Source: Paraflavisolibacter caeni (GTDB taxonomy: Bacteria; Bacteroidota; Bacteroidia; Chitinophagales; Chitinophagaceae). Taken from it: a stretch of DNA of 64,000 nt. Within the stretch, counting starts at the first letter, position 1; each line of letters starts with the position of its first letter. Below, piece after piece: positions 3,038 to 18,189 of the stretch. The notes beneath the pieces were generated by a model. That model did no database searches. It was given only the letters and a program-made list of their open reading frames with translations, and was not told the origin of the DNA. A program made the position numbers and the translations under genes. The DNA lies in assembly GCF_025628885.1 (NCBI RefSeq), contig NZ_JAOTIF010000020.1, forward strand, positions 62,001-126,000, read 5' to 3'.

Positions 3038-3800
3038 TTGCACTCGTTGTTTTTGTCAGAGCGGAAAGGCATATTATGTGCCTTTTTACCGTACAGGAGC
3101 AAAGGTTGTAGAAATAGATGTACAGATCAATGGCCTGCCTTCAAGATTTATTTTTGATCCGGGCGCTTCAATGGTTTCTTTTGGAAGGTCGTATTACCAG
3201 AAGTTGGTAAACGCATCATTAATTAGTGATGCGGATATAAAGTACAAGACAAAGACCAAATTGGCTGATGGGACGCTTTCTGATGTAACCATTGTGAACC
3301 TGAAAAGAATCATGTTGGGACAAATAGAGCTCAATGGGATAGAGGCCATGATCGCGGAGGCCGATAACGCGCCTTGTTTAATAGGGCAAAGTATTATACA
3401 AAACTTTTCGACAGTTACTATCGATAATGTCAATCAGCGTTTGGTATTGACAAGGACGACAAATTCTTCAATGTTACAGCTTGACAACCTGAAGTTTATT
3501 CCTTGCAGCAATATGGTTGTGGCTGAAGTTGAAAATGTGATGGAGCACATCAGAAAGGATAAGACTGCCCAAATCAGGAATTTTGCCTTGGAAGATAAGA
3601 TCCCTTCTACAAATGCTATTAATAGAATTAAGAATAAAATTACCATACGCTATTTCGATAGAAACGATATGACAAAGTCGGAGTCTTTACGAAATAAGTT
3701 TGGAGTGATGGGGTATGCTGATAGCCAGGTATTTGTTGAAGATATGACCCCCTATTTTTCTCAACCCATACCGAACTACATAGAAATCTGGATCAAATAA
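3000..3800 (+). CDS. Secreted retropepsin-like protein with a C-terminal IRYF/NYIEIW module
   Basis: From the ATG at 3000 this is a 266-aa protein with a signal peptide at residues 1-20 (ending CFCQ). That start is preferred over the one at 2949 because the signal peptide then begins the protein. Residues 30-160 resemble bacterial retropepsin-like aspartic proteases: hydrophobic FIF followed by DPGAS (D53), then FGRSYY, and later LIGQSIIQNF matching the second conserved hydrophobic-Gly block. The usual active-site DTG/DSG is DPG here, so catalysis is uncertain. Residues about 161-266 are one copy of a module shared with the next gene and the 5716 gene (core ITIRYF and PNYIEIWIK end). It overlaps the previous lipoprotein gene and is 16 bp before the metalloprotease gene. 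Confidence 0.7.
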   Translation: MLHKILFLVFIFSCTRCFCQSGKAYYVPFYRTGAKVVEIDVQINGLPSRFIFDPGASMVSFGRSYYQKLVNASLISDADIKYKTKTKLADGTLSDVTIVNLKRIMLGQIELNGIEAMIAEADNAPCLIGQSIIQNFSTVTIDNVNQRLVLTRTTNSSMLQLDNLKFIPCSNMVVAEVENVMEHIRKDKTAQIRNFALEDKIPSTNAINRIKNKITIRYFDRNDMTKSESLRNKFGVMGYADSQVFVEDMTPYFSQPIPNYIEIWIK

Positions 3801-3816
3801 TTTAAGTCAATTGCTT

Positions 3817-5151
3817 ATGAGGTATTTATTGCTATTATGTCTTTTGGTATTGCAGATAAAGATATTTGCACAAGACCCACATCCTATCAGCGGAATTAAT
3901 ATGCTGAAAAACTCAAGATGGCCAAGCCGGGCTGATGGAAAGACAGTAATTGAAGTAAGTTGGGAAAATCCAAGTTCATCAAATCTTCAACAAAGAGAGT
4001 GGGTGAAAACGGCTATCGAGAACACCTGGGAAACATATGCCAATATTGATTTTGTTGGCTGGGGGCAGTCAAATGCAAATTCAAGTGGCTTAAGAATTTT
4101 TATTGATGACTATTGCCATCCGCATACAAAGGGTTTAGGTACTGCCCTTGACGGCAAGCTAAAGGGTATGGAATTAAATTTTAATTTTTTAGGACAGTAT
4201 AAGTGCTATGGGCTTACCAAAGAAGATTGTATAAAGTTTATTGCTGTTCATGAATTCGGTCATGCATTAGGCCTGTCTCATGAACAAAATAGAAAGGATT
4301 GCCTGTGCAATGAAGATCCACAGGGAAGTGATGGTGATTTTTACGTAACTCCATGCGACCTAGAGTCTGTCATGAATTACTGCAATCCTAAATGGTCGAA
4401 TTATGGCAAGCTGAGTACAAACGATGTAGTTGGTATACAAGTTATATATGGCAAGCCCCAAGGTTCATCTATAATTGCCAATTTGAATGAAATAAGAGTT
4501 ATCCCTTGTACAAGGAACCTGGCAGACAGGGCTAGAACCATTAAGAATATTGTGCGTGCTTCTTCTGCTTATAATGTAAGATCGTTTACTGAAGAAAGTA
4601 ATCCGGTGCCACAGAAGGCTATAGACAGGTTGCCTAGTGCCATCACGATTCGTTATTTCCATCCGAATGATGAGGCAAAGGCTAAAGGGCTGAAAACATT
4701 ACTTGCATCTCAAGGTTTTAATAATAACTCCATAGGGATTGAAGATATGTCGTCAGTAATGGGCAGCACCATGCCAAACTATATTGAAATATGGACCAAG
4801 GAGCAGACTGTTTCCGGAAGCGTAGTCAATTTGGATGAGATCAGGTTTATTCCTGGTTCCCTTGAAGGAATAGATAAATTAGTCGATATTGTGGGTTTTC
4901 TTGAAGGTTCTTCCAATGTTAAAGTGAAGAATTATACAGTGGATGAAGATATTGTTCCGCAAAGAGCTCTTGCTAACCTGCCCAACTCAATTACTATCCG
5001 TTATTTCCACCCGGATGATGAAACCAAAGGCCTTGCGTTAAAAAGGTTTATTGAAGCAAAAGGATTCAGTAGTAGTATAATCAGTGTTGAAAATATGTTG
5101 CCCAAAATGAGCAAAACATATCCGAATTATATTGAGATATGGGCAAAATAA
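3817..5151 (+). CDS. Secreted zinc metalloprotease (metzincin, astacin-like) with two C-terminal IRYF/NYIEIW modules
   Basis: A 444-aa protein from the ATG at 3817; a TTG two codons earlier is less likely. Signal peptide is at about residues 1-19. The zinc site HEFGHALGLSH (residues 145-155) is a full metzincin HExxHxxGxxH and is followed by EQNR, as in astacins (HEQxR). A Met-turn SVMNYC follows about 60 residues later, then a typical YG end to the catalytic domain near residue 213. Two tandem copies of the locus-specific module fill the rest. It is expected to cut proteins outside the cytoplasm. It sits in a run of exported genes, 16 bp after the retropepsin-like gene and 17 bp before a lipoprotein gene. 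The function of the C-terminal modules is unknown; binding or targeting is my inference. Confidence 0.85.
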   Translation: MRYLLLLCLLVLQIKIFAQDPHPISGINMLKNSRWPSRADGKTVIEVSWENPSSSNLQQREWVKTAIENTWETYANIDFVGWGQSNANSSGLRIFIDDYCHPHTKGLGTALDGKLKGMELNFNFLGQYKCYGLTKEDCIKFIAVHEFGHALGLSHEQNRKDCLCNEDPQGSDGDFYVTPCDLESVMNYCNPKWSNYGKLSTNDVVGIQVIYGKPQGSSIIANLNEIRVIPCTRNLADRARTIKNIVRASSAYNVRSFTEESNPVPQKAIDRLPSAITIRYFHPNDEAKAKGLKTLLASQGFNNNSIGIEDMSSVMGSTMPNYIEIWTKEQTVSGSVVNLDEIRFIPGSLEGIDKLVDIVGFLEGSSNVKVKNYTVDEDIVPQRALANLPNSITIRYFHPDDETKGLALKRFIEAKGFSSSIISVENMLPKMSKTYPNYIEIWAK

Positions 5152-5168
5152 TAAATTAAAGAAGCGAT

Positions 5169-5657
5169 ATGAGGATATTGATCATTGTTCTAATTGCAAT
5201 GGCTGGTACTTTGCCGAAGTGTAACAAAGGCAAGGTTAGTGCAACATCAGGTTTAATAGAGAAGGTCAGCTTATCTATACATCAATATCCTATGAAGGAA
5301 GTATTAATATATGATACTGATTCCAGTAGCCTCCGGGTAAGATTGTTGAATAATAGTTTAGGTGTTGACTCCCTGCTGGCGGAAAGGCAGGTTGATCTAA
5401 AGGGCTTTCAAATTTATGAGAGCGATATTAGCAAATTTGATCAGGAGCTATATGCTAATCAATGTATTCAAGATGGACAGGTGATTACTTTGGCTTTCAT
5501 GAAAAATGATTCTACACTTAGAAAAGTGCGGTTTAGCAATTATTATCATGAAGGCCTTGAAAAGGTCATCAACTTTATTAATTCAAATGTAGATTCAGTA
5601 TACTCCATAAGTTATAATAGAGATCAACTGATTGGTGAGATGAAAAAATGCAAATAG
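5169..5657 (+). CDS. Hypothetical lipoprotein
   Basis: A 162-aa protein I do not recognise. The N-terminus is a short hydrophobic signal with Cys at residue 18 (TLPKC), which is compatible with a lipoprotein but not a perfect lipobox. The rest is soluble with alternating strands and helices. It lies 17 bp after the metalloprotease gene and is probably in the same transcript. A decayed copy of its middle part is found about 12.6 kb away at 17970-18147, just past the second kinase gene, where LLKNSSGVD, KEFQISESD and YANQCLQDGQVI mirror this protein. The copy suggests that the surrounding block has been duplicated. Confidence 0.6.
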   Translation: MRILIIVLIAMAGTLPKCNKGKVSATSGLIEKVSLSIHQYPMKEVLIYDTDSSSLRVRLLNNSLGVDSLLAERQVDLKGFQIYESDISKFDQELYANQCIQDGQVITLAFMKNDSTLRKVRFSNYYHEGLEKVINFINSNVDSVYSISYNRDQLIGEMKKCK

Positions 5658-5715
5658 TTGGAATCTGGATTTGGGGATTTAAGAAGTGATTGTGTTTTAA
5701 TGTAAATTTTGCTAT

Positions 5716-6237
5716 ATGAAAAATATGTATAAAAAGTTTTTCCTTACAGTAATCATTCTTTTTTTTGGAATGACGACCTTGTCTGTCTTTGCACAGAAGA
5801 TCACAAAGCCTGTCACACAATTGGATGTACCGAAGGATAATAAGAAAAAAGATCCTGTTAAGAAAAAGCCCCAAGGTACAACATCACCCAAGGGTTCTCC
5901 AGCAGTTGCTCAATTAAATGAAATTAAAGTTATCCCTTGTGCAGGTGACCTGGTGGAACGAGCTCAAATCATCAGGAATATAATAAGTTCATCTCCTGCT
6001 TTTAAAGTAAAGTCTTTTACAGAAGAAAGTAATCCTGTGCCACAGAGGGCTGTCGACCGATTGCCTAATAAAATAACTATTCGCTATTTCCATCCAAAAA
6101 ATGAAGCGAATGCCAAGGGGTTGAAAACATTACTAGTTGCCCAAGGTTTTGATAGCAATGCTTTAGACATTGAAAATATGATGCAAGCGATTGGCGGCAC
6201 CATTCCGAACTATATAGAGATATGGACCAAGTGGTAA
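5716..6237 (+). CDS. Exported protein with one IRYF/NYIEIW module
   Basis: A 173-aa protein with a signal peptide at about residues 1-26 (ending VFAQ), a Lys/Pro-rich linker at about 36-62, and a single copy of the locus-specific module at about 66-173. The copy is very close to the first module of the metalloprotease gene (shared segments FTEESNPVPQ, ITIRYFHP and PNYIEIWTK). It has no catalytic domain, so the module itself is probably the functional unit. It is the last of the exported genes before the kinase cluster, separated from it by 117 bp. Confidence 0.65.
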   Translation: MKNMYKKFFLTVIILFFGMTTLSVFAQKITKPVTQLDVPKDNKKKDPVKKKPQGTTSPKGSPAVAQLNEIKVIPCAGDLVERAQIIRNIISSSPAFKVKSFTEESNPVPQRAVDRLPNKITIRYFHPKNEANAKGLKTLLVAQGFDSNALDIENMMQAIGGTIPNYIEIWTKW

Positions 6238-6354: not shown

Positions 6355-7238
6355 ATGGAGATTCTGAGTAAGTATATATATGATCCGAAGCATGATTTGT
6401 TGGGTCGTGGCGGTTTTGCTACTGTGTACCGTGCCCATGACAAGATATTGGACATGCCTGTTGCCCTGAAGTTCTTTCATCCCCAGGAAGGCTCCAACAA
6501 GTACAACATCATCAATGAGATCCGCAGGGCCATCGTCCTTTCTCACCCCAACATTGTCAAATACTTTGGGGTGGAGAGCCTGGTGAACCGTGATGTCCAT
6601 GGCATGGAGGAAGAGATCCAGATCGGGGTGATGGAGTATGTTCAGGAAGGGCAGATGAAGGAGTTTTTGTTGCGCCAGCCGCTGTTGCACTCAGAGCTGG
6701 CGGAGCTGTTAGTGGGGGTGCTGGAAGGGCTCAAGTACCTGCACAGCCAGGGTATCATCCACAGGGATATCAAGCCTCAGAACATCCTGTTGGGCCGGGA
6801 TAAGCAGGACAAGCTCATTGCCAAGATTGCAGATTTTGGTATCAGCAAGAATGTGGATTCCAGCCATACGAGTTCCTCTCTTTTGCTGGGTACGGTGGAG
6901 TATATGGCTCCCGAGCAGTTCAATCCTGAGCGCTATGGTATTGGCAAGCGGGTGAGTTATAATGTGGACATCTGGGCCTTTGGGGTGACGGCCTACGCCC
7001 TTTTGTGTGGCCGTCCGTTGTTTGGAGCCCGCAGTGGGGAGACCTCGCCTGGTGAGCTGATCAACAAGATCGTGAATGTGGAGAACCTGGAGGAGCAGTT
7101 GCATGGGTTGCAGGAGCCCTTTCGCAGCCTGATTGCCCGTTGTGTGATCCCTGATGCCAAGAGCAGGACCTCGAGCATAGATGAACTTATAGGTATCCTC
7201 AGGGGCAGTAGTGCACCAGCCATCCATAACCTACATGC
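6355..7238 (+). repeat. 884-bp perfect direct repeat, copy 1 (kinase domain)
   Basis: These bases are identical to 16108-16991, 9,753 bp away in the same direction. Identity starts exactly at the ATG; the upstream bases do not match. After 7238 there are four scattered mismatches over about 50 bp and then no similarity. Confidence 0.95.
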
Positions 7239-8256
7239 TACTGTATCGGTAAACCTCAATGGTTATCCGTCAACAGGTGGGCAGGAAACTGTAGTAATGC
7301 CTAAACAAACTGTTGCAGAAGAGACAGCTGTACTGCCTAGACCTGCACCAGTTGTTGGCCAGAAAAATGAAGTTCCCGTTGCAAAAGTTGTTGAAAAAGA
7401 GGTTGCCAGGGAAGAAGTAAAAAAGACGAAGGATCCAAAGGATGAAATAAAGCAAGCAAAAAAAGGTTCCTCTTCTAAAAAGTCAGTTTTCTTCATTGGT
7501 GTGCTTTTGTTATTATCTGTAGGCGGAGTAGCTTATTATTATCCAACATGGAACGAGCAAAAAGCTAAGGAAGCAAGAGCTGCATCCGAAAAAGAGATCA
7601 TGATCAACCTGCTCAGTGAAATAGATAAAAAGATGATCACGGTAGCTGGTGGTGATTTCACTATGGGGACCAACAGCTCACAAAATGAGAGTCCAGCTCA
7701 TCAAGTGGCCGTGGATACTTTCCGATTAATGAATGTTGAAGTGACCCGTGGATTGTGGAATAAAGTGATGAAAGATAACCGGTTTACTGACAGTACTCAA
7801 TTTGAATTGCCTGCTAATAATGTGAGTTGGAATGAAGCCCATGCTTTTATTGATAAACTCAATAAGCTAAATGCAACTAATGGCAACAATAAAGCATTAT
7901 TCCGCTTGCCTGAAGAAAAGGAATGGGAGTATGCTTATTATTACATGGATGACTCCACGAACCTTGGGTTGAATGAGTTTAGCTGGAATAAGGATAACGC
8001 AAGGGGGGTATTGCATCCTGTTGGAGGGAAGCAAATAACCGGAAAAGGCTTCCACGACATGTTGGGCAATGTATATGAGTGGTGTGAGAATTGGTATGGG
8101 TCTTATGGAAAGTCTGCTAAGGAGGAAGGTAAGGTGCTTCGCGGAGGAGACTATAAAAATGATATTTATTTCGTAAGTCCTAAGATCCGTAATGTGGAGG
8201 CGCCAGACCAGTCATCTGAAAATATTGGTTTCCGTATTGCACAAAACATCCATTAA
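6355..8256 (+). CDS. Membrane Ser/Thr protein kinase with extracytoplasmic FGE-sulfatase/SUMF1-type domain
   Basis: A 633-aa Hanks-type kinase. Visible motifs: Gly loop GRGGFATVY at 17-25, catalytic Lys in ALKFF (K39), HRDIKPQN with D138, DFG at 160-162, and MAPEQ at 184-188. A Pro/Lys-rich linker (312-375) leads to one TM segment at about 378-397. Residues about 426-631 form an FGE/SUMF1-type domain (GGDFTMGTN, RLPEEKEWEYAY, GNVYEWCENW, LRGGDY, IGFRIAQ), predicted to lie outside the membrane, possibly as sensor. The first 884 bp are identical to the start of the gene at 16108 and use visibly more G/C-ending codons than the C-terminal half. It is followed at 23 bp by the PP2C gene, the likely opposing phosphatase. 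Confidence 0.93.
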   Translation: MEILSKYIYDPKHDLLGRGGFATVYRAHDKILDMPVALKFFHPQEGSNKYNIINEIRRAIVLSHPNIVKYFGVESLVNRDVHGMEEEIQIGVMEYVQEGQMKEFLLRQPLLHSELAELLVGVLEGLKYLHSQGIIHRDIKPQNILLGRDKQDKLIAKIADFGISKNVDSSHTSSSLLLGTVEYMAPEQFNPERYGIGKRVSYNVDIWAFGVTAYALLCGRPLFGARSGETSPGELINKIVNVENLEEQLHGLQEPFRSLIARCVIPDAKSRTSSIDELIGILRGSSAPAIHNLHATVSVNLNGYPSTGGQETVVMPKQTVAEETAVLPRPAPVVGQKNEVPVAKVVEKEVAREEVKKTKDPKDEIKQAKKGSSSKKSVFFIGVLLLLSVGGVAYYYPTWNEQKAKEARAASEKEIMINLLSEIDKKMITVAGGDFTMGTNSSQNESPAHQVAVDTFRLMNVEVTRGLWNKVMKDNRFTDSTQFELPANNVSWNEAHAFIDKLNKLNATNGNNKALFRLPEEKEWEYAYYYMDDSTNLGLNEFSWNKDNARGVLHPVGGKQITGKGFHDMLGNVYEWCENWYGSYGKSAKEEGKVLRGGDYKNDIYFVSPKIRNVEAPDQSSENIGFRIAQNIH

Positions 8257-8279
8257 TCCAATCCTTAAAGACGAGCATT

Positions 8280-9374
8280 TTGTTACCAAACATCAATCCT
8301 AATTCTGCTTCAGTTGCACCTGTTTTTTCATTGAATGAAATAGGAGGAAGGGCTAATCTTGAAGATTCCATTTCGCCTGTGCATCCGCATGTTTTTGTTG
8401 TATGTGATGGTGTAGGCGGAAACAGTGCCGGAGAAGTGGCCTCTGCTGAAGCAGTAAATTCATTTTACCATCTTTTTTCAAGTCGTTATTTAACTATAAA
8501 AAGTGTTGATGATTTTCGTCAACTGATTCAAGATGCATTAGAAGACTTCCGGCAGGCTATCAGCCGTTTTATTGCCATCAATCCAACAGCTAAGAGTACC
8601 AGTACCACCCTTACTTTGATGGTGCTGCATGAAGGCAAAGCTTACCTGGCCTGGTGTGGCGACAGCCGGATCTATCATATTCGCCATGGTGAAGTTGCAT
8701 TCCGAACTAAAGATCATTCCCTGGTACAGGAACTGCTTTCGAAAGGCGTTATCAATGAAACAGAAGCAGAACGCCATCCTCAACGAAATGTAATTGTGCG
8801 CAGCCTGAATGTACAGACAAAGGCGGAACAGATCGATACGATCGTACTTGAAGACTTAAGAGAAGGTGACTGGTTGCTGCTTTGTACTGATGGCCTGATG
8901 GAACAATTCAAAGAAAATTTGTTCCCCGCTTATCTAAATGACCTGGATACCAATACCAATTATGCAATGCAGATCAGGTCTATCTGTGAAGGTAGAACGA
9001 AAGATAATTATTCCATGCACCTTGTTCACTACCGATCAGAACAAAATACTAAGGATAGAAGGAAGAAGTCGCGACTTTTATTGTGGATACTGCCTGCTGT
9101 TTTAACAATACTTCTATCTTTTTACGTTCTTTTCGGAGGAAAGGGAGGTAAAACCCAGGAGGCAGAGGTTCCTGCAGTTGACTCAATGCAATTAACAATG
9201 CCAGTAAAGAAAAAGGAAGGCCAGAAATCACTTTTCCGGAGCCATGAAGATTTGCAAAAAGCTGAAAAGTCCCAAGCTGGCAGAAATACCAATTTAAGGG
9301 ATACCACAAGTAAGAAAACAGGGAATAATTTAAAGGTGGATTCTTTAGTGGTTAAAGATAAAGTGCCGGTGTAA
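8280..9374 (+). CDS. PP2C-family Ser/Thr protein phosphatase with TM segment
   Basis: A 364-aa protein starting at TTG 8280; no in-frame ATG is available before the conserved domain. PP2C motifs are present: NLEDS at 26-30, VCDGVGGNS (D43, G44) for metal binding, WCGDSR with D128, LLCTDGL with D204, and the late Asp-Asn pair KDN at 241-243. One TM segment lies at about 266-286, followed by a Lys-rich tail of about 75 residues. The catalytic domain would face the cytoplasm and oppose the neighbouring kinases. It is 23 bp after the kinase gene and 73 bp before the coiled-coil gene, within one transcription unit. Confidence 0.92.
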   Translation: MLPNINPNSASVAPVFSLNEIGGRANLEDSISPVHPHVFVVCDGVGGNSAGEVASAEAVNSFYHLFSSRYLTIKSVDDFRQLIQDALEDFRQAISRFIAINPTAKSTSTTLTLMVLHEGKAYLAWCGDSRIYHIRHGEVAFRTKDHSLVQELLSKGVINETEAERHPQRNVIVRSLNVQTKAEQIDTIVLEDLREGDWLLLCTDGLMEQFKENLFPAYLNDLDTNTNYAMQIRSICEGRTKDNYSMHLVHYRSEQNTKDRRKKSRLLLWILPAVLTILLSFYVLFGGKGGKTQEAEVPAVDSMQLTMPVKKKEGQKSLFRSHEDLQKAEKSQAGRNTNLRDTTSKKTGNNLKVDSLVVKDKVPV

Positions 9375-9447
9375 AAGCGATTACAAGTAACCGGAGATTC
9401 ACTTCAAAGACAAAAGGCTAAAGATTCGATAACCCATAATTAAAAAT

Positions 9448-12024
9448 ATGACCAAAACAACCGATACCCAAGCAGAAGATGCATTGAAACAAATTGAAGC
9501 ACTCCTGGCTTCAGCAGAAAGCATGATCACAGAAATTAAAAATTACAGGATCGAAGCTGCTGAAGAACGCAAAGAGGCTGGACAGGTAAAAACTGATATT
9601 GAAGCAATTTTTGCAAAAACAGAAAAGATATATTCTGATTCAGAGGAATTATTTGATAAAATTGATCATATCAATAAGGAATCTGAAACTGCATTCGATA
9701 AGATAACAGATAGGCAAGAAACTTCTGAAAGCCTTGTGCATAAGATGGAAGAAGATGCACAACATGGGCAAGAGGTATTGCAATTAATCAATCAGCATGA
9801 GCACAATGCAAAAGATTTGTTGCAGCAAACCACTGGACATGAATCTCAGGCTGAACAGTTGTTGAATGAGACTAAGGCGCATGAAAGCCAGGCAGAGCAG
9901 TTACTGATAGAGACGCGTACTCATGAATCGCAAGCGGAGCAATTATTGAATGAGACCCGAGCACATGAATCTCTGGCAGAGCAGACAGTACATGAAACAC
10001 AACGGCATGAACAGGACGCAAGTACGGCATTGACACAAGCAAAAGCCCATGAAGCTGCTGCAGAAATGGCCATGAATGAAGCCCGTAGTCATGAGACCGC
10101 AGCGGCCGCTTCTGCAAACCAAGCAAGAGATGCTGAAGCTGCAGCAATAGAAGCCATGCATAGAATAAAAACTTTGGAAACGGAGGCTTCATCTTTATTG
10201 GAAACGATCAAACAACAGGAAAGAGAAGCAGAAGCTGCCCTGGCCCGCATCAAAGAATTGGAAAAAGAAGCTGATACCTGCTGTCATCATGTTATTAAAT
10301 GTAAAGACACTTCAATTGAAATAATTGATGTTCTGGGAACTCAAAAAGAAGAGGCCATTGGTATCTGTGGTTTTATTACTGAAAGGAAAGAAGAAGCCAT
10401 TTCGATCTGTACTACGATCACTGAAAGAAAAGAAGAATCGATTACATTATGTGGTACGATTAGGGAGCAGAAAGAAGAGTCCATTTCTATATGTACCACC
10501 ATAAAAGAATCCAAAGAGGAAGCGATAAGTATTTGTGGAGTTATCCGTGAACATAAGGAGGAATCCATAACGATCTGTAATGTCATCAAGGAGCAAGAAA
10601 AAGAGGCAATGACATCGTGCAGTATCGTTAAAGACCAGGAAAAAGATGCCATAAGTATTTGTGCCCAGGTTCATAACCATGAAAAGGAAGCGCTAACTGT
10701 CTGTGGCACTATTCACGAACATGAAAAAACGGCATCAGGACTCTGTATCCATATTCACGAGTTTGAGCAAAGATCGTCTTCAGAATGCACAGTGATACAT
10801 GATCATGAAAAAGAAGCAGCTGCTATTTGTGCACAAATGCAGACATATCAAAAGCAGGCTGATACAGGCGTGGGTATCATTGTAGATTATGAGAAAGAAG
10901 CTATAAAGCATGTGGATACCATCCAGCAGAAAGAAGCTGAGGCTGTGGACCATTTGGAAAAGATAAAGTCTAATGAAGCGGAATCAACTACTGTACTTGG
11001 TGTCATTAACCATACAAAAGACGAAGCAACCGCAAGTATGGAAGCAACCAAACAAGCGATGACTGAGGCTAAAAATGCAGAAGGTGCAGCTAAGCAATCA
11101 CAGGCAGAGGCTAAGAATGCTGAGAATGCAGCTAAACATTCCCAATCGGAAGCAAAGGGGGCTGAAAATGCGGCTAAGCAGTCGCAGGCAGAAGCCAAGG
11201 GTGCAGAGAATGCAGCCAAGCAGTCCATGGCTGAAGCTAAGAACGCTGAAAATATAGCGAAGCAAGCAATGACGGAAGCTAAGGCGCACGAAACCGCAGC
11301 AGAAACATCTAAGCAAAATGCTATCCAGGATGCTAAAGATTCCGAGGCAGCCAAGCAGGATGCGCAAAATGATGCCAAGGAATCAGAGAAGGCAAAACAG
11401 GATGCAATAAGTGATGCCAATGACGCGGAGAAGGCAAAGCAAGATGCGCAAAATGATGCCAAGGAAGCTGAAAAGGCAAAGCAGGATGCACAAAATGATG
11501 CTAAAGAAGCGGAGAAGGCAAAGCAGGATGCACAAAATGATGCCAAGGAAGCGGAGAAAGCCAAGCAGGATGCACAAAGTGATGCCAAAGAAGCAGAGAA
11601 GGCCAAACAGGATGCTCAATCGGATGCCAGAGATGCAGACAAAGCAAAACAGGATGCTCAATCGGATGCTAAAGATGCTGATAAAGCTAAGCAGGATGCT
11701 CAGTCTGATGCTAAAGATGCAGAAAAGGCCAAGCAAGATGCACAGGATGATGCTAAAGAAGCGGAGAAGGCAAAGCAGGATGCTCAATCGGATGCTAAAG
11801 ATGCTGATAAGGCTAAGCAGGATGCACAGGATGATGCTAAAGCGTCTGATGATGCCAAGAAAGCTGCTGAAGATTATAGAAAAGCTGCTGAGGATGCAAA
11901 AAGAGAAGCAGAAGAGGCACAGAAAGCTGCAGAAACTGCACAGAGATCTGCGGAAGAATCTGCCAGGAATGCTGACAAGTATGAAGACGAGGCACGCGAA
12001 GCTGCATATAGGGCAAGACATTAA
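9448..12024 (+). CDS. 858-residue protein made of tandem 14-residue coiled-coil repeats, with a Cys ladder
   Basis: I do not know a family for this protein. From about residue 19 nearly to the end, it divides into consecutive 14-residue units without gaps (about 57). The units change in style: early HESQAEQLLNETKA type, then a central block of 12 consecutive units (such as RKEEAISICTTITE) with Cys at unit position 9, then SQAEAKNAENAAKQ type, then 12 AKQDAQNDAKEAEK type, and a C-terminal Ala/Glu/Lys helix. Fourteen residues equal two heptads, so a very long coiled-coil rod is predicted. There is no signal peptide or TM, so it should be cytoplasmic. It lies between the PP2C and FHA genes, 12 bp before the latter. 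A scaffold or phosphorylation substrate role is inference. Confidence 0.85.
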   Translation: MTKTTDTQAEDALKQIEALLASAESMITEIKNYRIEAAEERKEAGQVKTDIEAIFAKTEKIYSDSEELFDKIDHINKESETAFDKITDRQETSESLVHKMEEDAQHGQEVLQLINQHEHNAKDLLQQTTGHESQAEQLLNETKAHESQAEQLLIETRTHESQAEQLLNETRAHESLAEQTVHETQRHEQDASTALTQAKAHEAAAEMAMNEARSHETAAAASANQARDAEAAAIEAMHRIKTLETEASSLLETIKQQEREAEAALARIKELEKEADTCCHHVIKCKDTSIEIIDVLGTQKEEAIGICGFITERKEEAISICTTITERKEESITLCGTIREQKEESISICTTIKESKEEAISICGVIREHKEESITICNVIKEQEKEAMTSCSIVKDQEKDAISICAQVHNHEKEALTVCGTIHEHEKTASGLCIHIHEFEQRSSSECTVIHDHEKEAAAICAQMQTYQKQADTGVGIIVDYEKEAIKHVDTIQQKEAEAVDHLEKIKSNEAESTTVLGVINHTKDEATASMEATKQAMTEAKNAEGAAKQSQAEAKNAENAAKHSQSEAKGAENAAKQSQAEAKGAENAAKQSMAEAKNAENIAKQAMTEAKAHETAAETSKQNAIQDAKDSEAAKQDAQNDAKESEKAKQDAISDANDAEKAKQDAQNDAKEAEKAKQDAQNDAKEAEKAKQDAQNDAKEAEKAKQDAQSDAKEAEKAKQDAQSDARDADKAKQDAQSDAKDADKAKQDAQSDAKDAEKAKQDAQDDAKEAEKAKQDAQSDAKDADKAKQDAQDDAKASDDAKKAAEDYRKAAEDAKREAEEAQKAAETAQRSAEESARNADKYEDEAREAAYRARH
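11350..11853 (+). repeat. Twelve 42-bp tandem repeats (AKQDA units)
   Basis: The coding DNA here is 12 in-frame units of 42 bp, each encoding AKQDA plus nine mostly acidic or basic residues. Neighbouring units differ at few positions, so this block is the youngest part of the 858-aa gene and is prone to copy-number change by slippage or recombination. Confidence 0.9.
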
Positions 12025-12036
12025 AAGTGGTGAATC

Positions 12037-12744
12037 ATGAATAAACAAGAGGCTTTTGAATTTCTGGAGTTAAAGACATCGGCAACGGAAGCTGAAATAA
12101 AAATTAGGCTACAGGAAAAACAACAATATTTTGAACAACTGTGTGCTACTGCACCTGGTGAGTTCCTGCAAAAGCTGCATAAGAGAAATATTGAAAAAGT
12201 GCAGACGATCAGGAACCTGTTTTTTCCTTCAGGAGGTGGTCATGATCATTCAGAACGTAAGGCGGCACAGGTAAATGCTTCGGCAAATTCTTATGCACAG
12301 CCTGCTGATCATATAAATTTAGATCAACCTGTAGCCTGGCTGATCTGCCATACCGAGCATCAATCATCTCGACCACATTCTTTGTATGCAGGGGAGAATT
12401 ATTTCGGCAGGGCATTAGCTGATGGTAAAAGAAGTATATTGCTGGAACATGATATTTATGTAAGTCGTTACCATGCAGTTGTAGAAGTGCAGCTGGGGCT
12501 TTATCCGAAAGTTTTTATACAGGATGCAGGTGCGTATACTGGTAAGCCAAGTAAGAATGGCATCTATATTAATGGTAGCAGCCAAAGAATTCAAAACAAA
12601 GTTCAACTTCAGGAAAACGATACCGTACAAATAGGAGTTACTAAACTGATATTACGCTTCAATCGAGAAAAGCCTATTAACCGTATCGTGGAAGAAGTAT
12701 CTAAAACCGAATTTATAAAAACCGTGGTCATAGACCTCTTTTAA
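12037..12744 (+). CDS. FHA-domain protein with J-domain-like N-terminus
   Basis: A 235-aa cytoplasmic protein. Residues about 104-208 form an FHA phosphothreonine-binding domain: YFGR at 122-125, DIYVSRYHAVV with S143, R144 and H146, then SKNGIYING at 172-180 and the final TKLILRF. Residues about 4-60 (AFEFLELK, ATEAEIK, helical with LF end) resemble helices I-II of a J-domain, but no HPD triad is present. FHA domains read the products of Thr kinases such as the two flanking ones. The J-like part could contact the Hsp70 encoded two genes later (inference). It is 12 bp after the coiled-coil gene and 2 bp before the next gene. Confidence 0.88.
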   Translation: MNKQEAFEFLELKTSATEAEIKIRLQEKQQYFEQLCATAPGEFLQKLHKRNIEKVQTIRNLFFPSGGGHDHSERKAAQVNASANSYAQPADHINLDQPVAWLICHTEHQSSRPHSLYAGENYFGRALADGKRSILLEHDIYVSRYHAVVEVQLGLYPKVFIQDAGAYTGKPSKNGIYINGSSQRIQNKVQLQENDTVQIGVTKLILRFNREKPINRIVEEVSKTEFIKTVVIDLF

Positions 12745-12746
12745 TT

Positions 12747-14435
12747 ATGTCAGATCTGAATTTTATAGTTGAAAAGCTGGAGGATATGCGAAAAGATATT
12801 GGCATCTCCAACTTTTCAGGTTTCCTGGAAAAGACAGGAGAAAACGTAAGCAAGATCGCTGCAGACAGAAGTTGCCATGTTGATATTTATTATCATTCCA
12901 GTTCTATTCCATCTATCAGGAAGAAAGTGGAAGAAATCAGCAAGCAAAATGGTGAACCTGGTTTTGTTTATCATTTTATATCCGATAAAAAGGAACCGTT
13001 GCGTATGTTCCTTCAGATGATGCCAGCAATAGCTGTCATTTTCCTGGATGAAGACTTTAGTCAGTCTGAAAAACCTTTCCAATTTCTTAGGAATCGTGTA
13101 GGCCAGTATAAATTATTATTCCTTATAAATTTTTCTGGTGAAGAGAAAATGGCTAAAGAATTCAGTGCACAAATTGACAGGAGCATTAAACTACATGCCA
13201 TTTCATATGAAGCTTTTAGTTCAACATCACTAAAGGCTCTAATTTCAGAAATGGTTGACAATAATATTCTTGCCCGGCTCAATTCATTTGCATTACACAA
13301 TACTGTAAGGCCAATTGTGCCCATGCTCCAGGATATATTTCAAACTGAGAACAAGATATTTCAAACTAGAAAGCTGTTAAGCGGCCAGCATGGCCAGATC
13401 ATTCGGAAGGAAGAGCAAATGCAGAATAACAATGACTTCAACAACAACCTGAAGACATTGGTGCAGAAGAATATGCAGGAAATGGAAAAGAGTTACCGAT
13501 CCAAGTATGAGGATATGAACAAGCCTAATACTGGTCGGTTCTCACAGGTTGCTTCTGACTGTGTTCAACAAATTAAGGATTTCCAACGGGAAGAGATAGC
13601 TGAAAAAAGTGAAAAAGTTGCGATCAGCCTGAAGAAAAATGATACTGATAGAATATTGGCAACTGTTGGTTTGAATTTAAAAGAAGAATTCAGAAAAGAT
13701 GAAGCATTCATCCATAAGGTGTTTGAAGAACTTGTATCGAAAGTAAATAACCAACTTAATGAAAAAGGTATTTCACCACTTAAACCATCTGAGTTATTTC
13801 TGCCTTTTGCTGAAGGTCAGCGCATATTGAATTCTTATTGTTATATCGGTAAGCCATATGCTGGTGAATTGGTGAAAAAAGGAATCAATGAATACTTTAT
13901 AGCCCTTAGGGATTATACAGGCCTTATCATGGTGGTAGCGGGTCTATTAGCTCCTTTGAACATGGTTGCTACTATCTCTGAGAATGCTGTATTAAAAGCA
14001 ATGTCCAATTTTATCAGAATTACTACCGGTATGATTACCCTAATCATGATCGTATATGGTATTTATGACTTGCGTAGAAGGATACCACGGAAAAGACAGG
14101 AAGAGCAAGATAAAGAGCTGAACCGGGCAAGGGAAACTACTATGCAGGAGTGTAAAAGGATGTTTAATGAAAGCTCTCGTGACTGGCAGTCAAGTGTAAG
14201 CAATTGGATTCGTGATGTGGGTCAGAATATCCTGGTACAAATTGAGGCGAATATTAAAAACCAGGGCCAGCAAAAGCTGCAACAGTTAAATATAGAAAGA
14301 ATGCAGCAGCAACGATCGCAACAGAGTATTGATACGCTACACAGGAACTTCGGTTATGCTGAAAAGAGTAAGGATGCTTTGATATCGAAATTCCGTGATT
14401 CATTTAGCAATATTGAAAAAGAAATAAAATTATAA
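12747..14435 (+). CDS. Unknown two-TM membrane protein with Rossmann/TIR-like N-terminal region and coiled coils
   Basis: I do not recognise this 562-aa protein. Residues about 43-172 alternate hydrophobic strands and helices (CHVDIYYHS, AIAVIFLDEDFS, YKLLFLINFSG), like a TIR or other Rossmann-like fold; no catalytic residue can be named. Residues about 195-330 are helical, rich in Gln and Asn. Two TM segments at about 391-410 and 422-440 make a hairpin, followed by a basic stretch (RRRIPRKR) and a coiled coil to the end. Both long arms would be cytoplasmic. The coil/TM-hairpin/coil layout recalls membrane-shaping proteins, but no GTPase motif is present. It is 2 bp from each neighbour, tightly coupled with the FHA and Hsp70 genes. 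Confidence 0.7.
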   Translation: MSDLNFIVEKLEDMRKDIGISNFSGFLEKTGENVSKIAADRSCHVDIYYHSSSIPSIRKKVEEISKQNGEPGFVYHFISDKKEPLRMFLQMMPAIAVIFLDEDFSQSEKPFQFLRNRVGQYKLLFLINFSGEEKMAKEFSAQIDRSIKLHAISYEAFSSTSLKALISEMVDNNILARLNSFALHNTVRPIVPMLQDIFQTENKIFQTRKLLSGQHGQIIRKEEQMQNNNDFNNNLKTLVQKNMQEMEKSYRSKYEDMNKPNTGRFSQVASDCVQQIKDFQREEIAEKSEKVAISLKKNDTDRILATVGLNLKEEFRKDEAFIHKVFEELVSKVNNQLNEKGISPLKPSELFLPFAEGQRILNSYCYIGKPYAGELVKKGINEYFIALRDYTGLIMVVAGLLAPLNMVATISENAVLKAMSNFIRITTGMITLIMIVYGIYDLRRRIPRKRQEEQDKELNRARETTMQECKRMFNESSRDWQSSVSNWIRDVGQNILVQIEANIKNQGQQKLQQLNIERMQQQRSQQSIDTLHRNFGYAEKSKDALISKFRDSFSNIEKEIKL

Positions 14436-14437
14436 TA

Positions 14438-15958
14438 GTGGTTTTAGGAATTGATCTTGGTACCTGTAATTCAGTGGCCGCAACCTTGACTCGCGACGGC
14501 AGTGCCGTTCTAATACCAGATAGTGTTAACCGTGAAGAGGTGACAACCCCTTCAGTTGCTATTATTGATGGCAAGAAAGCTTATGCAGGACTCTTTGCCG
14601 AGAACCTGTTTGAAACATTTCCTGACAAGGAACTGATCTCTTTTTTCAAAAGGTATTTTGGTACACAAGAGCCTGTGTATGTTGACGAGAACAAAAATGC
14701 CTGGTTTTCAGAAACACTTGCCGCATTGATTCTCCGGAAAATAAAATACGATGCAGAGATGTACATGCCCGATGGTTACCGGAAGGCTGTCATAACAGTT
14801 CCTGCGCATTATAATGATGCACAAAGAAAATCTGCTATCGAGGCGTCGCGCCTGGCCGGCCTGGAACTCAATGCGCTTGTAGAGGAGCCAGTAGCAGCAG
14901 CTCTTTTTTATAGCAGCCAGAATGCAAAGCTGGATGATGAGATCATCCTGGTTTATGATTTTGGAGGTGGAACATTTGATCTGACCCTGATCACCAAATC
15001 TGGCAATCAGTTGCATGTTATTGCCAAAGATGGCATTTCAAATGTAGGTGGTAAGGAGTTTGATGAGATTGTATCTAACCGGATCAGGCAGACTTATGAG
15101 GATATTATGAAACAGCCTTTTCCTTCTGATAAGCTTTCGCTTAACCGGTTGAGGAAGATATCGGAAGTAATAAAGATCCGATTGAACCAGCAGGAGGGGG
15201 GACAAGACCTTGCACAATGGCTCATTTTTGGTCATCATGCCTTTGAATGTGTGTTTGATTTTCGTGCTTATGCCAGTGAAGCTGTAGCATTAATTCAAAA
15301 AACAGAAAACGCCGTTTTACGCTGCCTTAAATCATTAGGTATGCAATGGAGCGATGTTAGCAAAGTTATTTTAATTGGTGGCACAAGTAATAGTAAACTA
15401 ATTTATAATTACTGGAACCAAAAGATCAATCCTGAAAAGCAAACGCTGATCTATCATCAGCCTCTGACCAGTGTAGCCAAAGGAGCCGCAATATATGCCG
15501 GATCTTTATCGGATGGAGCACAGCAAATAGGCTCTGCTGTGGAACTGAAAACTGTAAGTACCTATAATATTGGGTTACGTCAAAAAGGTGGGAAGCAAAT
15601 TGATCTTTTGATCCATCGAAATACACCTTTGCCCATATCTGCAAAACGAGTATACCGAATTGATCCTAATGTGCATGAACATTTTTCTATGGACCTATGC
15701 CAATTCTGGGATGCAGAAACAGAAGTTTTTTACCTGGGAGAGATCAAGGCAGGGCCATTTAGTCACCAGGCCACTGAATTTTATCTTGAGTTTGCTATTG
15801 AGAACCGTAGTAACGGGACCATAGGTATCAAGGTGAAAAATGCTGATAATGGCAAGGATATAAAGTTTGAGTTTATAAAAAAACAGACCAAGCATACTTA
15901 TGATTTTCATAAGCAGAAGGCTTTAGTGGATAGTGTATATCTCAATAATTATGTTTAG
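14438..15958 (+). CDS. Hsp70-family protein, short form
   Basis: A 506-aa protein starting at GTG 14438, 2 bp after the previous stop; the start is fixed by the N-terminal GIDLGTCNSVAA phosphate-1 motif. Other nucleotide-binding signatures are YDFGGGTFDLTLI (phosphate 2) and ILIGGTSNSKLI (adenosine). After the actin-like ATPase domain (about 1-360) only about 140 residues remain, a shortened beta-type substrate-binding part (PLPISAKRVY at its start) lacking the helical lid of DnaK, which is about 640 aa. It is therefore a specialised Hsp70, not the housekeeping DnaK. No GrpE or DnaJ is nearby, but the FHA protein upstream has a J-like region. It probably serves the kinase/FHA cluster. Confidence 0.92.
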   Translation: MVLGIDLGTCNSVAATLTRDGSAVLIPDSVNREEVTTPSVAIIDGKKAYAGLFAENLFETFPDKELISFFKRYFGTQEPVYVDENKNAWFSETLAALILRKIKYDAEMYMPDGYRKAVITVPAHYNDAQRKSAIEASRLAGLELNALVEEPVAAALFYSSQNAKLDDEIILVYDFGGGTFDLTLITKSGNQLHVIAKDGISNVGGKEFDEIVSNRIRQTYEDIMKQPFPSDKLSLNRLRKISEVIKIRLNQQEGGQDLAQWLIFGHHAFECVFDFRAYASEAVALIQKTENAVLRCLKSLGMQWSDVSKVILIGGTSNSKLIYNYWNQKINPEKQTLIYHQPLTSVAKGAAIYAGSLSDGAQQIGSAVELKTVSTYNIGLRQKGGKQIDLLIHRNTPLPISAKRVYRIDPNVHEHFSMDLCQFWDAETEVFYLGEIKAGPFSHQATEFYLEFAIENRSNGTIGIKVKNADNGKDIKFEFIKKQTKHTYDFHKQKALVDSVYLNNYV

Positions 15959-16107
15959 GGTAGAAAGATGATTTATATAAAATCTCTTATCAAAAAAAGC
16001 TTTCATGTTGCATAATTGAAGTAGAAAGTAAAACTTTCTTATTTCATTTGGCTTTACATCTAAAGTATCTGACTTGACTAAAATTTGAATTAATAATAGC
16101 CTTGAAC

Positions 16108-16991
16108 ATGGAGATTCTGAGTAAGTATATATATGATCCGAAGCATGATTTGTTGGGTCGTGGCGGTTTTGCTACTGTGTACCGTGCCCATGACAAGATA
16201 TTGGACATGCCTGTTGCCCTGAAGTTCTTTCATCCCCAGGAAGGCTCCAACAAGTACAACATCATCAATGAGATCCGCAGGGCCATCGTCCTTTCTCACC
16301 CCAACATTGTCAAATACTTTGGGGTGGAGAGCCTGGTGAACCGTGATGTCCATGGCATGGAGGAAGAGATCCAGATCGGGGTGATGGAGTATGTTCAGGA
16401 AGGGCAGATGAAGGAGTTTTTGTTGCGCCAGCCGCTGTTGCACTCAGAGCTGGCGGAGCTGTTAGTGGGGGTGCTGGAAGGGCTCAAGTACCTGCACAGC
16501 CAGGGTATCATCCACAGGGATATCAAGCCTCAGAACATCCTGTTGGGCCGGGATAAGCAGGACAAGCTCATTGCCAAGATTGCAGATTTTGGTATCAGCA
16601 AGAATGTGGATTCCAGCCATACGAGTTCCTCTCTTTTGCTGGGTACGGTGGAGTATATGGCTCCCGAGCAGTTCAATCCTGAGCGCTATGGTATTGGCAA
16701 GCGGGTGAGTTATAATGTGGACATCTGGGCCTTTGGGGTGACGGCCTACGCCCTTTTGTGTGGCCGTCCGTTGTTTGGAGCCCGCAGTGGGGAGACCTCG
16801 CCTGGTGAGCTGATCAACAAGATCGTGAATGTGGAGAACCTGGAGGAGCAGTTGCATGGGTTGCAGGAGCCCTTTCGCAGCCTGATTGCCCGTTGTGTGA
16901 TCCCTGATGCCAAGAGCAGGACCTCGAGCATAGATGAACTTATAGGTATCCTCAGGGGCAGTAGTGCACCAGCCATCCATAACCTACATGC
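16108..16991 (+). repeat. 884-bp perfect direct repeat, copy 2 (kinase domain)
   Basis: Same bases as 6355-7238 without a mismatch, same strand. Identity again begins at the ATG and not before. Such exact identity between genes with unrelated C-termini implies very recent duplication or gene conversion. Confidence 0.95.
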
Positions 16992-17820
16992 AACTGTATC
17001 CGTTAACCTCAATGGTTATCCGTCAACAGGAGGGCAGGAAACTGCTGAGATCAATAAAGTATTTGAACATGAGAATTCCGAATTAAACCTGAAGACCAGA
17101 TTTGCGAAAACTTTTAATGTGTTGTTTCACGAGAATAAAATTGATGAGAACAATTTAGAAAACAAACCAGAGGAGGCCATAAAAAACATTCCCTCTGAAA
17201 AGAAGTTACAAGGTAAGGAAAAGGATTTTACAGAAAATAGTTCAAGACAATATAAAACACAGAAGGCATCTAAACCACTGATTATTATTTCAATTATTAG
17301 TATTGGTCTTTTGAGCTTTATTGGTGTTTTATTGCAATCAATGTCAGAGGGACCTCTTTGGGCTGCTTATGTAACGGGTATAATGTGGTTAATAAGTTGG
17401 ACATTCAGTGCCATGTTTATTCATAGCAGATTTTCGAAAAAGGAAATTATTGCTTTCGGTAAATGTTTTCAAATAAAAAGAGTAATCCTACTGAAAGGAT
17501 CAATCGGTTTTACTGTTTTATCACCAATTTTATCCGGTATCTGTTTTTTAATTGCAACGGCAGCTTATCAAGGTGTTTCTGTTGGTTGTTATTTTGAAGA
17601 TTTTCAGATGGGTGCAGCAATGATTCTTTCAATTTTCTTACTGATTTTAGGTGCTGGTTTTATTATTGGAATGATATCGCCACAAACCATCGGACTTTTA
17701 AAAAGAAAAGAGGTTGTCTTATGCTCTTTATTTCATTTACTAGTTCCAATAATAATTCTTCTTATTATTATAAAGCTTACTCCTTTAGTTAGTGGCGCCT
17801 TGACTGGCTCCTGTTATTAA
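16108..17820 (+). CDS. Ser/Thr protein kinase, duplicate kinase domain with a different multi-TM C-terminus
   Basis: A 570-aa protein from the ATG at 16108. Residues 1-294 are encoded by DNA identical to the kinase at 6355, and the protein match runs to about residue 312 (HRDIKPQN, DFG and MAPEQ at the same positions). It then departs: a charged linker (about 313-388) and about five hydrophobic TM segments (beginning about 390, ending about 560). There is no FGE domain. The C-terminal DNA is clearly more AT-rich than the kinase part. It is 149 bp after the Hsp70 gene and followed by a strong terminator at 17909-17950. The TM part could sense membrane or transported signals; this is inference. 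Confidence 0.9.
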   Translation: MEILSKYIYDPKHDLLGRGGFATVYRAHDKILDMPVALKFFHPQEGSNKYNIINEIRRAIVLSHPNIVKYFGVESLVNRDVHGMEEEIQIGVMEYVQEGQMKEFLLRQPLLHSELAELLVGVLEGLKYLHSQGIIHRDIKPQNILLGRDKQDKLIAKIADFGISKNVDSSHTSSSLLLGTVEYMAPEQFNPERYGIGKRVSYNVDIWAFGVTAYALLCGRPLFGARSGETSPGELINKIVNVENLEEQLHGLQEPFRSLIARCVIPDAKSRTSSIDELIGILRGSSAPAIHNLHATVSVNLNGYPSTGGQETAEINKVFEHENSELNLKTRFAKTFNVLFHENKIDENNLENKPEEAIKNIPSEKKLQGKEKDFTENSSRQYKTQKASKPLIIISIISIGLLSFIGVLLQSMSEGPLWAAYVTGIMWLISWTFSAMFIHSRFSKKEIIAFGKCFQIKRVILLKGSIGFTVLSPILSGICFLIATAAYQGVSVGCYFEDFQMGAAMILSIFLLILGAGFIIGMISPQTIGLLKRKEVVLCSLFHLLVPIIILLIIIKLTPLVSGALTGSCY

Positions 17821-17908: not shown

Positions 17909-17950
17909 GTGATAGGGCAATCTTCCTTTTTAAGATTGCCCTATCACTTT
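17909..17950 (+). terminator. Strong intrinsic terminator
   Basis: A 16-bp perfect inverted repeat (GTGATAGGGCAATCTT and its complement) with a 7-base loop, followed by TTTT. It lies about 90 bp after the second kinase gene and closes the cluster. Confidence 0.85.
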
Positions 17951-17969
17951 TAAGAATATTCCAATTAAA

Positions 17970-18147
17970 TATGATTTGGATTCCAATAGTATTCTGGTAA
18001 GACTGTTGAAAAATAGTTCAGGCGTTGATACCCTGCTGTTAGTAAGGAATGTTGACCTGAAGGAATTTCAAATTAGTGAAAGTGATACGAATAAATTTGA
18101 CAGGGAGGTGTATGCAAACCAATGTTTGCAAGATGGCCAGGTGATAA
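17970..18147 (+). pseudogene. Fragment of a paralogue of the lipoprotein gene at 5169
   Basis: Reading this strand gives DSNSILVRLLKNSSGVD, then LKEFQISESD and YANQCLQDGQVI, which align without gaps to residues about 56-110 of the lipoprotein at 5169-5657. There is no signal peptide, and the match stops abruptly at about 18147, where an unrelated fragment begins. It is a decayed partial copy. Confidence 0.7.
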
Positions 18148-18189
18148 ACCGTCAAGGCTTGTGGCTATATATAAAATTACTTTGCTCAT
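18148..18189 (-). pseudogene. 5' fragment of a DHFR/RibD-like gene
   Basis: On the minus strand the bases read MSKVILYIATSLDG, almost the same as the start of the gene at 21060-21596 (MSRVILYIATSLDG). Similarity continues weakly upstream of the ATG (18190 to about 18215). The coding match ends after 14 codons at the junction with the lipoprotein fragment, so it is a truncated copy. Confidence 0.65.

Follow-up and report, generated by a model that had tools for sequence, protein, structure and literature searches.

Two operon-linked Ser/Thr kinase genes of Paraflavisolibacter caeni share a perfectly identical kinase-coding tract, probably through domain-limited gene conversion

How do two genes of a single neighbourhood come to encode an identical kinase domain when the remaining halves of their products are unrelated? 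We addressed this question in a stretch of 64,000 nucleotides from Paraflavisolibacter caeni (the window, meaning the whole stretch of DNA that was analysed), in which a kinase gene stands at either end of a run of five genes. The genes and the borders of the shared sequence are as follows.

6355..8256, + strand: kinase gene 1, Hanks-type Ser/Thr kinase, linker, one hydrophobic segment, and FGE-sulfatase-like domain; 633 aa
6355..7238, + strand: identical tract, copy 1, kinase domain, 884 bp
7239..7290, + strand: homologous but non-identical 3' edge of copy 1, to codon 312, with 4 synonymous differences
8280..9374, + strand: PP2C-type phosphatase with one hydrophobic segment
9448..12024, + strand: 858-aa repeat protein, coiled-coil-like by eye, with no Pfam match
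12037..12744, + strand: FHA-domain protein (Pfam)
12747..14435, + strand: 562-aa protein with two weak hydrophobic segments, no confident family, conserved in the operon
14438..15958, + strand: Hsp70 (DnaK-like; Pfam)
16108..17820, + strand: kinase gene 2, same kinase domain and start of the linker, then about five hydrophobic segments; 570 aa from the ATG
16108..16991, + strand: identical tract, copy 2, 884 bp
16992..17043, + strand: homologous but non-identical 3' edge of copy 2

Positions 6355-7238 and 16108-16991 form an exact direct repeat of 884 bp with 0 mismatches, which begins at the A of the ATG in both kinase genes, and 0 bases match just upstream. Alignment of the 300 bp lying 5' of each copy gave a score of 14, which is no better than that of 100 shuffles (mean 15, maximum 25). 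At the 3' edge, codons 295-312 (18 codons) encode the same residues with four synonymous differences between copy 1 and copy 2 (GCT/GCA, TCG/TCC, GTA/GTT, and GGT/GGA), and from codon 313 onward the two genes are unrelated; the total homology is 936 bp, perfect in the first 884 only. A perfect match of this length is far beyond chance. A sequence-only reading of this stretch had described the identity from the ATG, the mismatch upstream, different C-termini, and an excess of G/C-ending codons. The coordinates and the lack of upstream similarity proved accurate, as did the remainder: gene 1 continues into a membrane segment and an FGE domain (Pfam FGE-sulfatase, 7e-33) and gene 2 into about five hydrophobic segments (hydropathy scan), and GC3 is 0.67 in the tract vs 0.37 and 0.27 in the two C-termini. 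The genome search for further copies which that reading had proposed found the full-length tract in two places of the assembly (7,014,184 bases, 89 contigs) and in none more, the third DNA match being 97 bp at 72% in a distant paralogue. Recombination between the two direct copies could in principle delete or amplify the 9.75 kb that they enclose.

Both kinases match Pfam Pkinase at 2e-49 and carry the Hanks-type hallmarks, with the glycine loop, HRD, DFG, and APE motifs at 17, 136, 160, and 185. The five genes between them share a strand, and the gaps measure 2 to 149 bases. The C-terminus of gene 2 had no Pfam match above cut-off and was found in its own genome alone among 195 family genomes; across 395 phylum genomes, the other match was a single weak, stop-broken one of 52 residues. 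Several features of the neighbourhood were also noted. About 19 tandem 42-bp units lie in the gene of the 858-aa protein at 11203-12000, encoding 14-residue repeats rich in A, K, E, and D. By eye, the FHA protein (12037-12744; also L047 12908-13567) ends in a common threonine-containing tail, KTVVID, and the linker of kinase gene 1 has similar stretches, TVVMP and TAVLP; these might be candidate phospho-docking sites. On the 5' side of kinase gene 1 (3462-6231), three neighbouring genes contain between them four occurrences of a domain of about 112 residues that ends in IPNYIEIW; the occurrences are 29-63% identical, and one of the three genes additionally matches astacin/matrixin-type proteases weakly.

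We then compared the operon with those of related genomes. The order kinase-FGE, PP2C, (repeat protein), FHA, 562-aa protein, and Hsp70 was found in Hydrotalea (L046 and L133, which represent a single place), in Sediminibacterium magnilacihabitans (L047), and in two further loci (L131, L132), the repeat protein being undetected in the L047 and L132 operons. Two other contigs (L045, L048) stop inside the operon, and in the apparent genome of L045 the 562-aa protein lies on another contig. The kinases of the six orthologous loci are 67-71% identical to the kinase domain of the window, and each of the four genomes that could be searched whole contains one such kinase at E below 1e-50. Gene 1 natively heads this operon, which is conserved in Chitinophagaceae. 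The operon is also rare: among family genomes, and counting P. caeni in both cases, 5 of 388 have a match to the 562-aa protein and 10 of 394 to the kinase (E below 1e-50). All four loci that extend past Hsp70 hold, in the slot 3' of it, a second FGE-type protein without a match to the kinase domain of the window.

L131, 4038-4715: second FGE-type protein after Hsp70
L132, 6826-7512: second FGE-type protein after Hsp70
L133, 2571-3263: second FGE-type protein after Hsp70
L047, 18079-18765: second FGE-type protein after Hsp70

Kinase gene 2 therefore sits where the relatives hold another candidate sensor. A Pedobacter locus (L055) retains this order, its kinase being more distant (44-45%) and an FGE match being absent, and in two Flectobacillus loci PP2C precedes the kinase. 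The Pedobacter Hsp70 is 78-80% identical to that of L047, L132, and L131 but its kinase only 47-48%, which suggests that the sensor kinase has been exchanged against the rest of the operon.

Identity between neighbouring kinases is not usual in this family. In other loci with at least two kinase matches, counting those of 150 query residues or more (34 pairs from 26 of 122 loci, one pair being a place included twice), exact DNA matches between two kinases reached 21 bp at most. Two further, distant kinases of the family (46 and 48% identical) lie a short way apart on contig 78 of the P. caeni genome itself, and the best repeat between these is 129 bp at 71%. By eye, one kinase of this pair (L130 4810-10662) has MORN-like repeats and the other is short; their gene set differs from that of the operon and includes PP2C-like and FHA-like proteins.

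The border of the tract is the most informative part of the locus. Within the tract none of 294 codons differs, whereas in the linker next to it 4 of 18 do (Fisher p 7.9e-6). At the edge rate about 62 tract codons would be expected to differ, and even at the lower 95% bound of that rate (from a calculation on 19 edge codons, of which one is already unrelated) the probability of 0 differences in 294 codons is about 1e-8, with the edge divergence itself consisting of 4 differences. All four are GC-conserving transversions, vs 8 of 42 differences in a nearby pair of small genes that are 77% identical; this was noticed afterwards with n=4 and is not used as evidence. The linker of the two kinases had no convincing match in the six orthologous loci, either in a search (best E 0.29) or by eye, which suggests that the duplication arose in this lineage, and the two copies are 100% identical to each other while being 67-71% identical to their orthologues, so that the paralogues are closer than the orthologues. 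The small genes constitute a second duplicated pair, present in only two places of the assembly, one near each kinase.

5169..5657, + strand: 162-aa small protein, full-length member of the pair, 5' of kinase gene 1
17943..18149, + strand: truncated paralogue of the 5169 gene, 123 bp past the stop of kinase gene 2, 77% DNA identity (over 182 sites)

Conceivably, this pair dates the duplication of the kinases. Since it is not collinear with them (5' of gene 1, 3' of gene 2) and includes a truncated member, it may record a different event.

From these patterns, we consider it probable that the duplication is old and that the kinase part was later homogenised by gene conversion limited to that domain, with the sensing halves kept different. 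The sequence-only reading had offered repeated gene conversion between kinases fused to different sensor modules, or a mobile kinase cassette. The conversion is the best-supported explanation, on account of the diverged 3' edge and the neighbouring pair, and its repetition is suggested only. One or several conversions both fit the identity, and several fit the composition better; the conversion, its repetition, and its direction are what we infer from the pattern. An old duplication would have placed the second kinase 3' of Hsp70, joined to a different multi-TM C-terminus, after which intragenomic homologous recombination would have copied the kinase-coding part between the genes in at least one recent event and probably in more. 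The converted segment would then span from the start of homology at the ATG to just short of its end inside the common linker. The outcome would be a pair of receptors that differ in input and are identical in catalytic output. Judging from its family, the FGE-type domain of gene 1 is expected to lie outside the inner membrane, and gene 2 would sense through its membrane part. Both kinases would phosphorylate the same targets, which the FHA protein presumably reads and the PP2C phosphatase presumably erases, and homogenisation would keep both fitted to these common partners.

Could a single recent event have produced the pair? If the kinase-coding segment was copied once, without repeated conversion, perfect identity follows readily, and it is consistent with this that no second species or strain among the genomes searched carries both kinase genes. 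A fresh copy, however, should have brought linker and upstream sequence along at equal identity; the differing linker codons and the unmatched upstream sequence argue against a plain recent copy, and a single event would have hit an already homologous gene, which amounts to a single conversion. The gradient of GC3 along the tract (described below) also suggests a longer history than one event, and we regard this explanation as rather improbable. A quite different possibility is that the reads of two similar kinase genes were collapsed during assembly and placed twice, which would make the perfect identity partly artificial. The assembly consists of 89 contigs, and its sole 16S match lies on a contig of 5,568 bp that looks like a collapsed repeat, indicating that repeats of several kb were probably collapsed. 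On the other hand, the window contains no N, the four differences just 3' of the tract were retained, the gene order after copy 1 agrees with that of the orthologues, and both reading frames are open. A direct repeat of two copies would be placeable without spanning reads, as it forms a simple loop with one consistent path in the assembly graph. An artefact is thus very unlikely in our estimate, although letter-perfect identity carries some doubt in a draft assembly, and single differences may be hidden inside the tract. PF01609 transposases were tried as a repeat check on assembly quality, and with two matches they were unusable.

The composition of the tract is the second puzzle of the locus. 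Its GC3 of 0.67 exceeds the maximum of 0.57 among 398 overlapping control windows of 294 codons (mean 0.394, sd 0.065; 240 kb of the same genome). The shift is gradual, without a step at the tract ends; in windows of 30 codons, GC3 rises from 0.47 to 0.87, drops to 0.57, recovers to 0.80, and ends at 0.43. Central codons have a GC3 of 0.72 (n 228) vs 0.42 (n 78) in those at most 40 codons from either end, a class which includes unconverted linker codons, and the gradient has a Spearman rho of 0.18 (p 0.0017). The difference between centre and ends is -0.03 to +0.10 in the six orthologues, and three of these six single-copy genes have a gradient in this direction that is less pronounced (rho 0.11-0.15, p 0.01-0.05). 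The amino acids are shifted as well, with GARP at 0.235 vs 0.184-0.208 and FYMINK at 0.282 vs 0.343-0.364 in four orthologues. The two types of two-fold codons are highly asymmetric: 88% of the A/G type end in G (n 50), whereas 38% of the C/T type end in C (n 61), against window means of 0.38 G and 0.30 C (45 genes, both kinases included). Furthermore, in the single-copy kinases of the Sediminibacterium type (L047, L132), A makes up 0.06-0.09 of four-fold sites in the kinase part vs 0.25-0.26 in the C-termini; this avoidance of A indicates that part of the pattern needs no second copy.

Three explanations of this composition were weighed. Long-running GC-biased conversion could have raised the GC3 of the kinase domain from about 0.35 to 0.67 and altered its amino acids, leaving the flanking halves at the genomic composition. 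The raised GC3 that marks such conversion fits the tract, whereas the favouring of both A to G and T to C does not: a pure GC bias should raise both types of two-fold codons, and the C/T type stays near the genomic level. We regard this explanation as unlikely. The same asymmetry speaks for import of the kinase domain from a GC-richer relative, with the identity of the copies stemming from the import or from one later conversion. The high GC3 and the amino acid shift point to a GC pressure of some age, and of the codon tables of 81 loci, that of an apparent Cnuella takakiae (congener) fits the tract best, the window's own table ranking 40th. Against this, no close donor was found, the best relatives being the 67-71% identical kinases of the same operon type; the highest share of G at two-fold A/G codons among 12 loci (four of them stretches of the same genome) is 0.61, which is far from 0.88; and the gradual course of GC3 lacks the step that an imported segment would be expected to leave at its ends. 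Import is an unlikely explanation in our estimate. As for composition only, and without excluding the other explanations, the G/C-ending codons could be due to selection on how efficiently or accurately the kinase domain is translated. In all six orthologues GC3 is higher in the kinase part than in the C-terminal part (by +0.02 to +0.16), and the third-largest within-gene step among 34 genes of this genome, 0.163, belongs to another kinase gene. The steps in the two genes studied here, 0.43 and 0.34, are nevertheless the largest of the 34 and are limited to half a gene, the amino acids are shifted too, and the Hsp70 gene of the same operon has a GC3 of only 0.37. Such selection seems highly improbable as the cause. 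Domain-limited conversion between the two kinase genes, which we prefer for the identity, leaves the composition of the tract not fully explained.

The other origin that had been suggested, a mobile kinase cassette, found no support. The genome contains two copies only, gene 1 is the native operon head, the window has no inverted repeats of at least 60 bp and no other direct-repeat family at the tract, and a scan of viral contigs found no relative. The search of plasmid proteins returned 466 matching records, all below 60% and the best at 47%, which are distant kinases. Known anti-phage kinase systems (MADS, PD-T4-6) were considered and rejected, as 2 of 7 scanned proteins matched PADLOC, both of them the kinases (109-110 bits, below the MAD6 cut-off of 460), and 0 of 5 partners did.

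In essence, the locus suggests how a bacterium may plug two sensors into one signalling enzyme and keep the kinases identical. If the composition of the tract stems from conversion, the pair offers a within-gene test of the GC bias that is disputed in bacteria (PMC4450053 for, PMC8153448 against). Should GC-biased conversion be true, it would be a natural experiment in which the unconverted C-termini serve as built-in controls. Within the open-access literature, we found nothing on the subject of gene conversion with Hanks-type kinases, nor on that of FGE-sulfatase together with a kinase domain in Bacteroidetes.

Rhs/CDI-type polymorphic genes have a common 5' part and unrelated 3' parts. In contrast to these, the genes described here are kinases and not toxins, they are two fixed genes, and no array of spare C-termini was seen. 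GTPase-centred conflict systems are described with neighbourhoods that contain kinase, PP2C, and Hsp70 genes (PMC7159879); those systems have GTPase, vWA, and tubulin partners, whereas no operon partner here matched such a family (Pfam, PADLOC). GC-biased gene conversion in bacteria was proposed from higher GC, most marked at third positions, in recombining sequence (PMC4450053) and has been contradicted (PMC8153448). The former work compares core genes across strains, whereas our comparison concerns two paralogues with a larger local effect and an asymmetry between A/G and C/T codons. A survey of long-lasting concerted evolution in prokaryotic genes reports 26 genes in which it recurs over long times (PMC6053082). 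As in those genes, the paralogues here are closer within the genome than to their orthologues, although ours is one case in one genome and for one domain. A close precedent is mtrA-1/mtrA-2 of Methanococcales and Methanomicrobiales, operon paralogues of which one is joined to a different TM domain and whose common domain is homogenised by gene conversion, with mean paralogue identities of 92.4% and 99.7% in the two orders, and whose homogenisation is argued to keep the paralogues fitted within their complex (PMC4632066). That case concerns an archaeal methyltransferase subunit in many species, and the main text of the report does not contain the term 'GC content'; ours concerns a Ser/Thr kinase, in a single bacterium, whose tract has a strongly raised GC3. 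It is already known from mtrA (PMC4632066) that operon paralogues differing in their membrane parts can be homogenised in one domain, and the two kinase genes resemble that pair in being paralogues at one operon with differing TM parts and a homogenised common domain.
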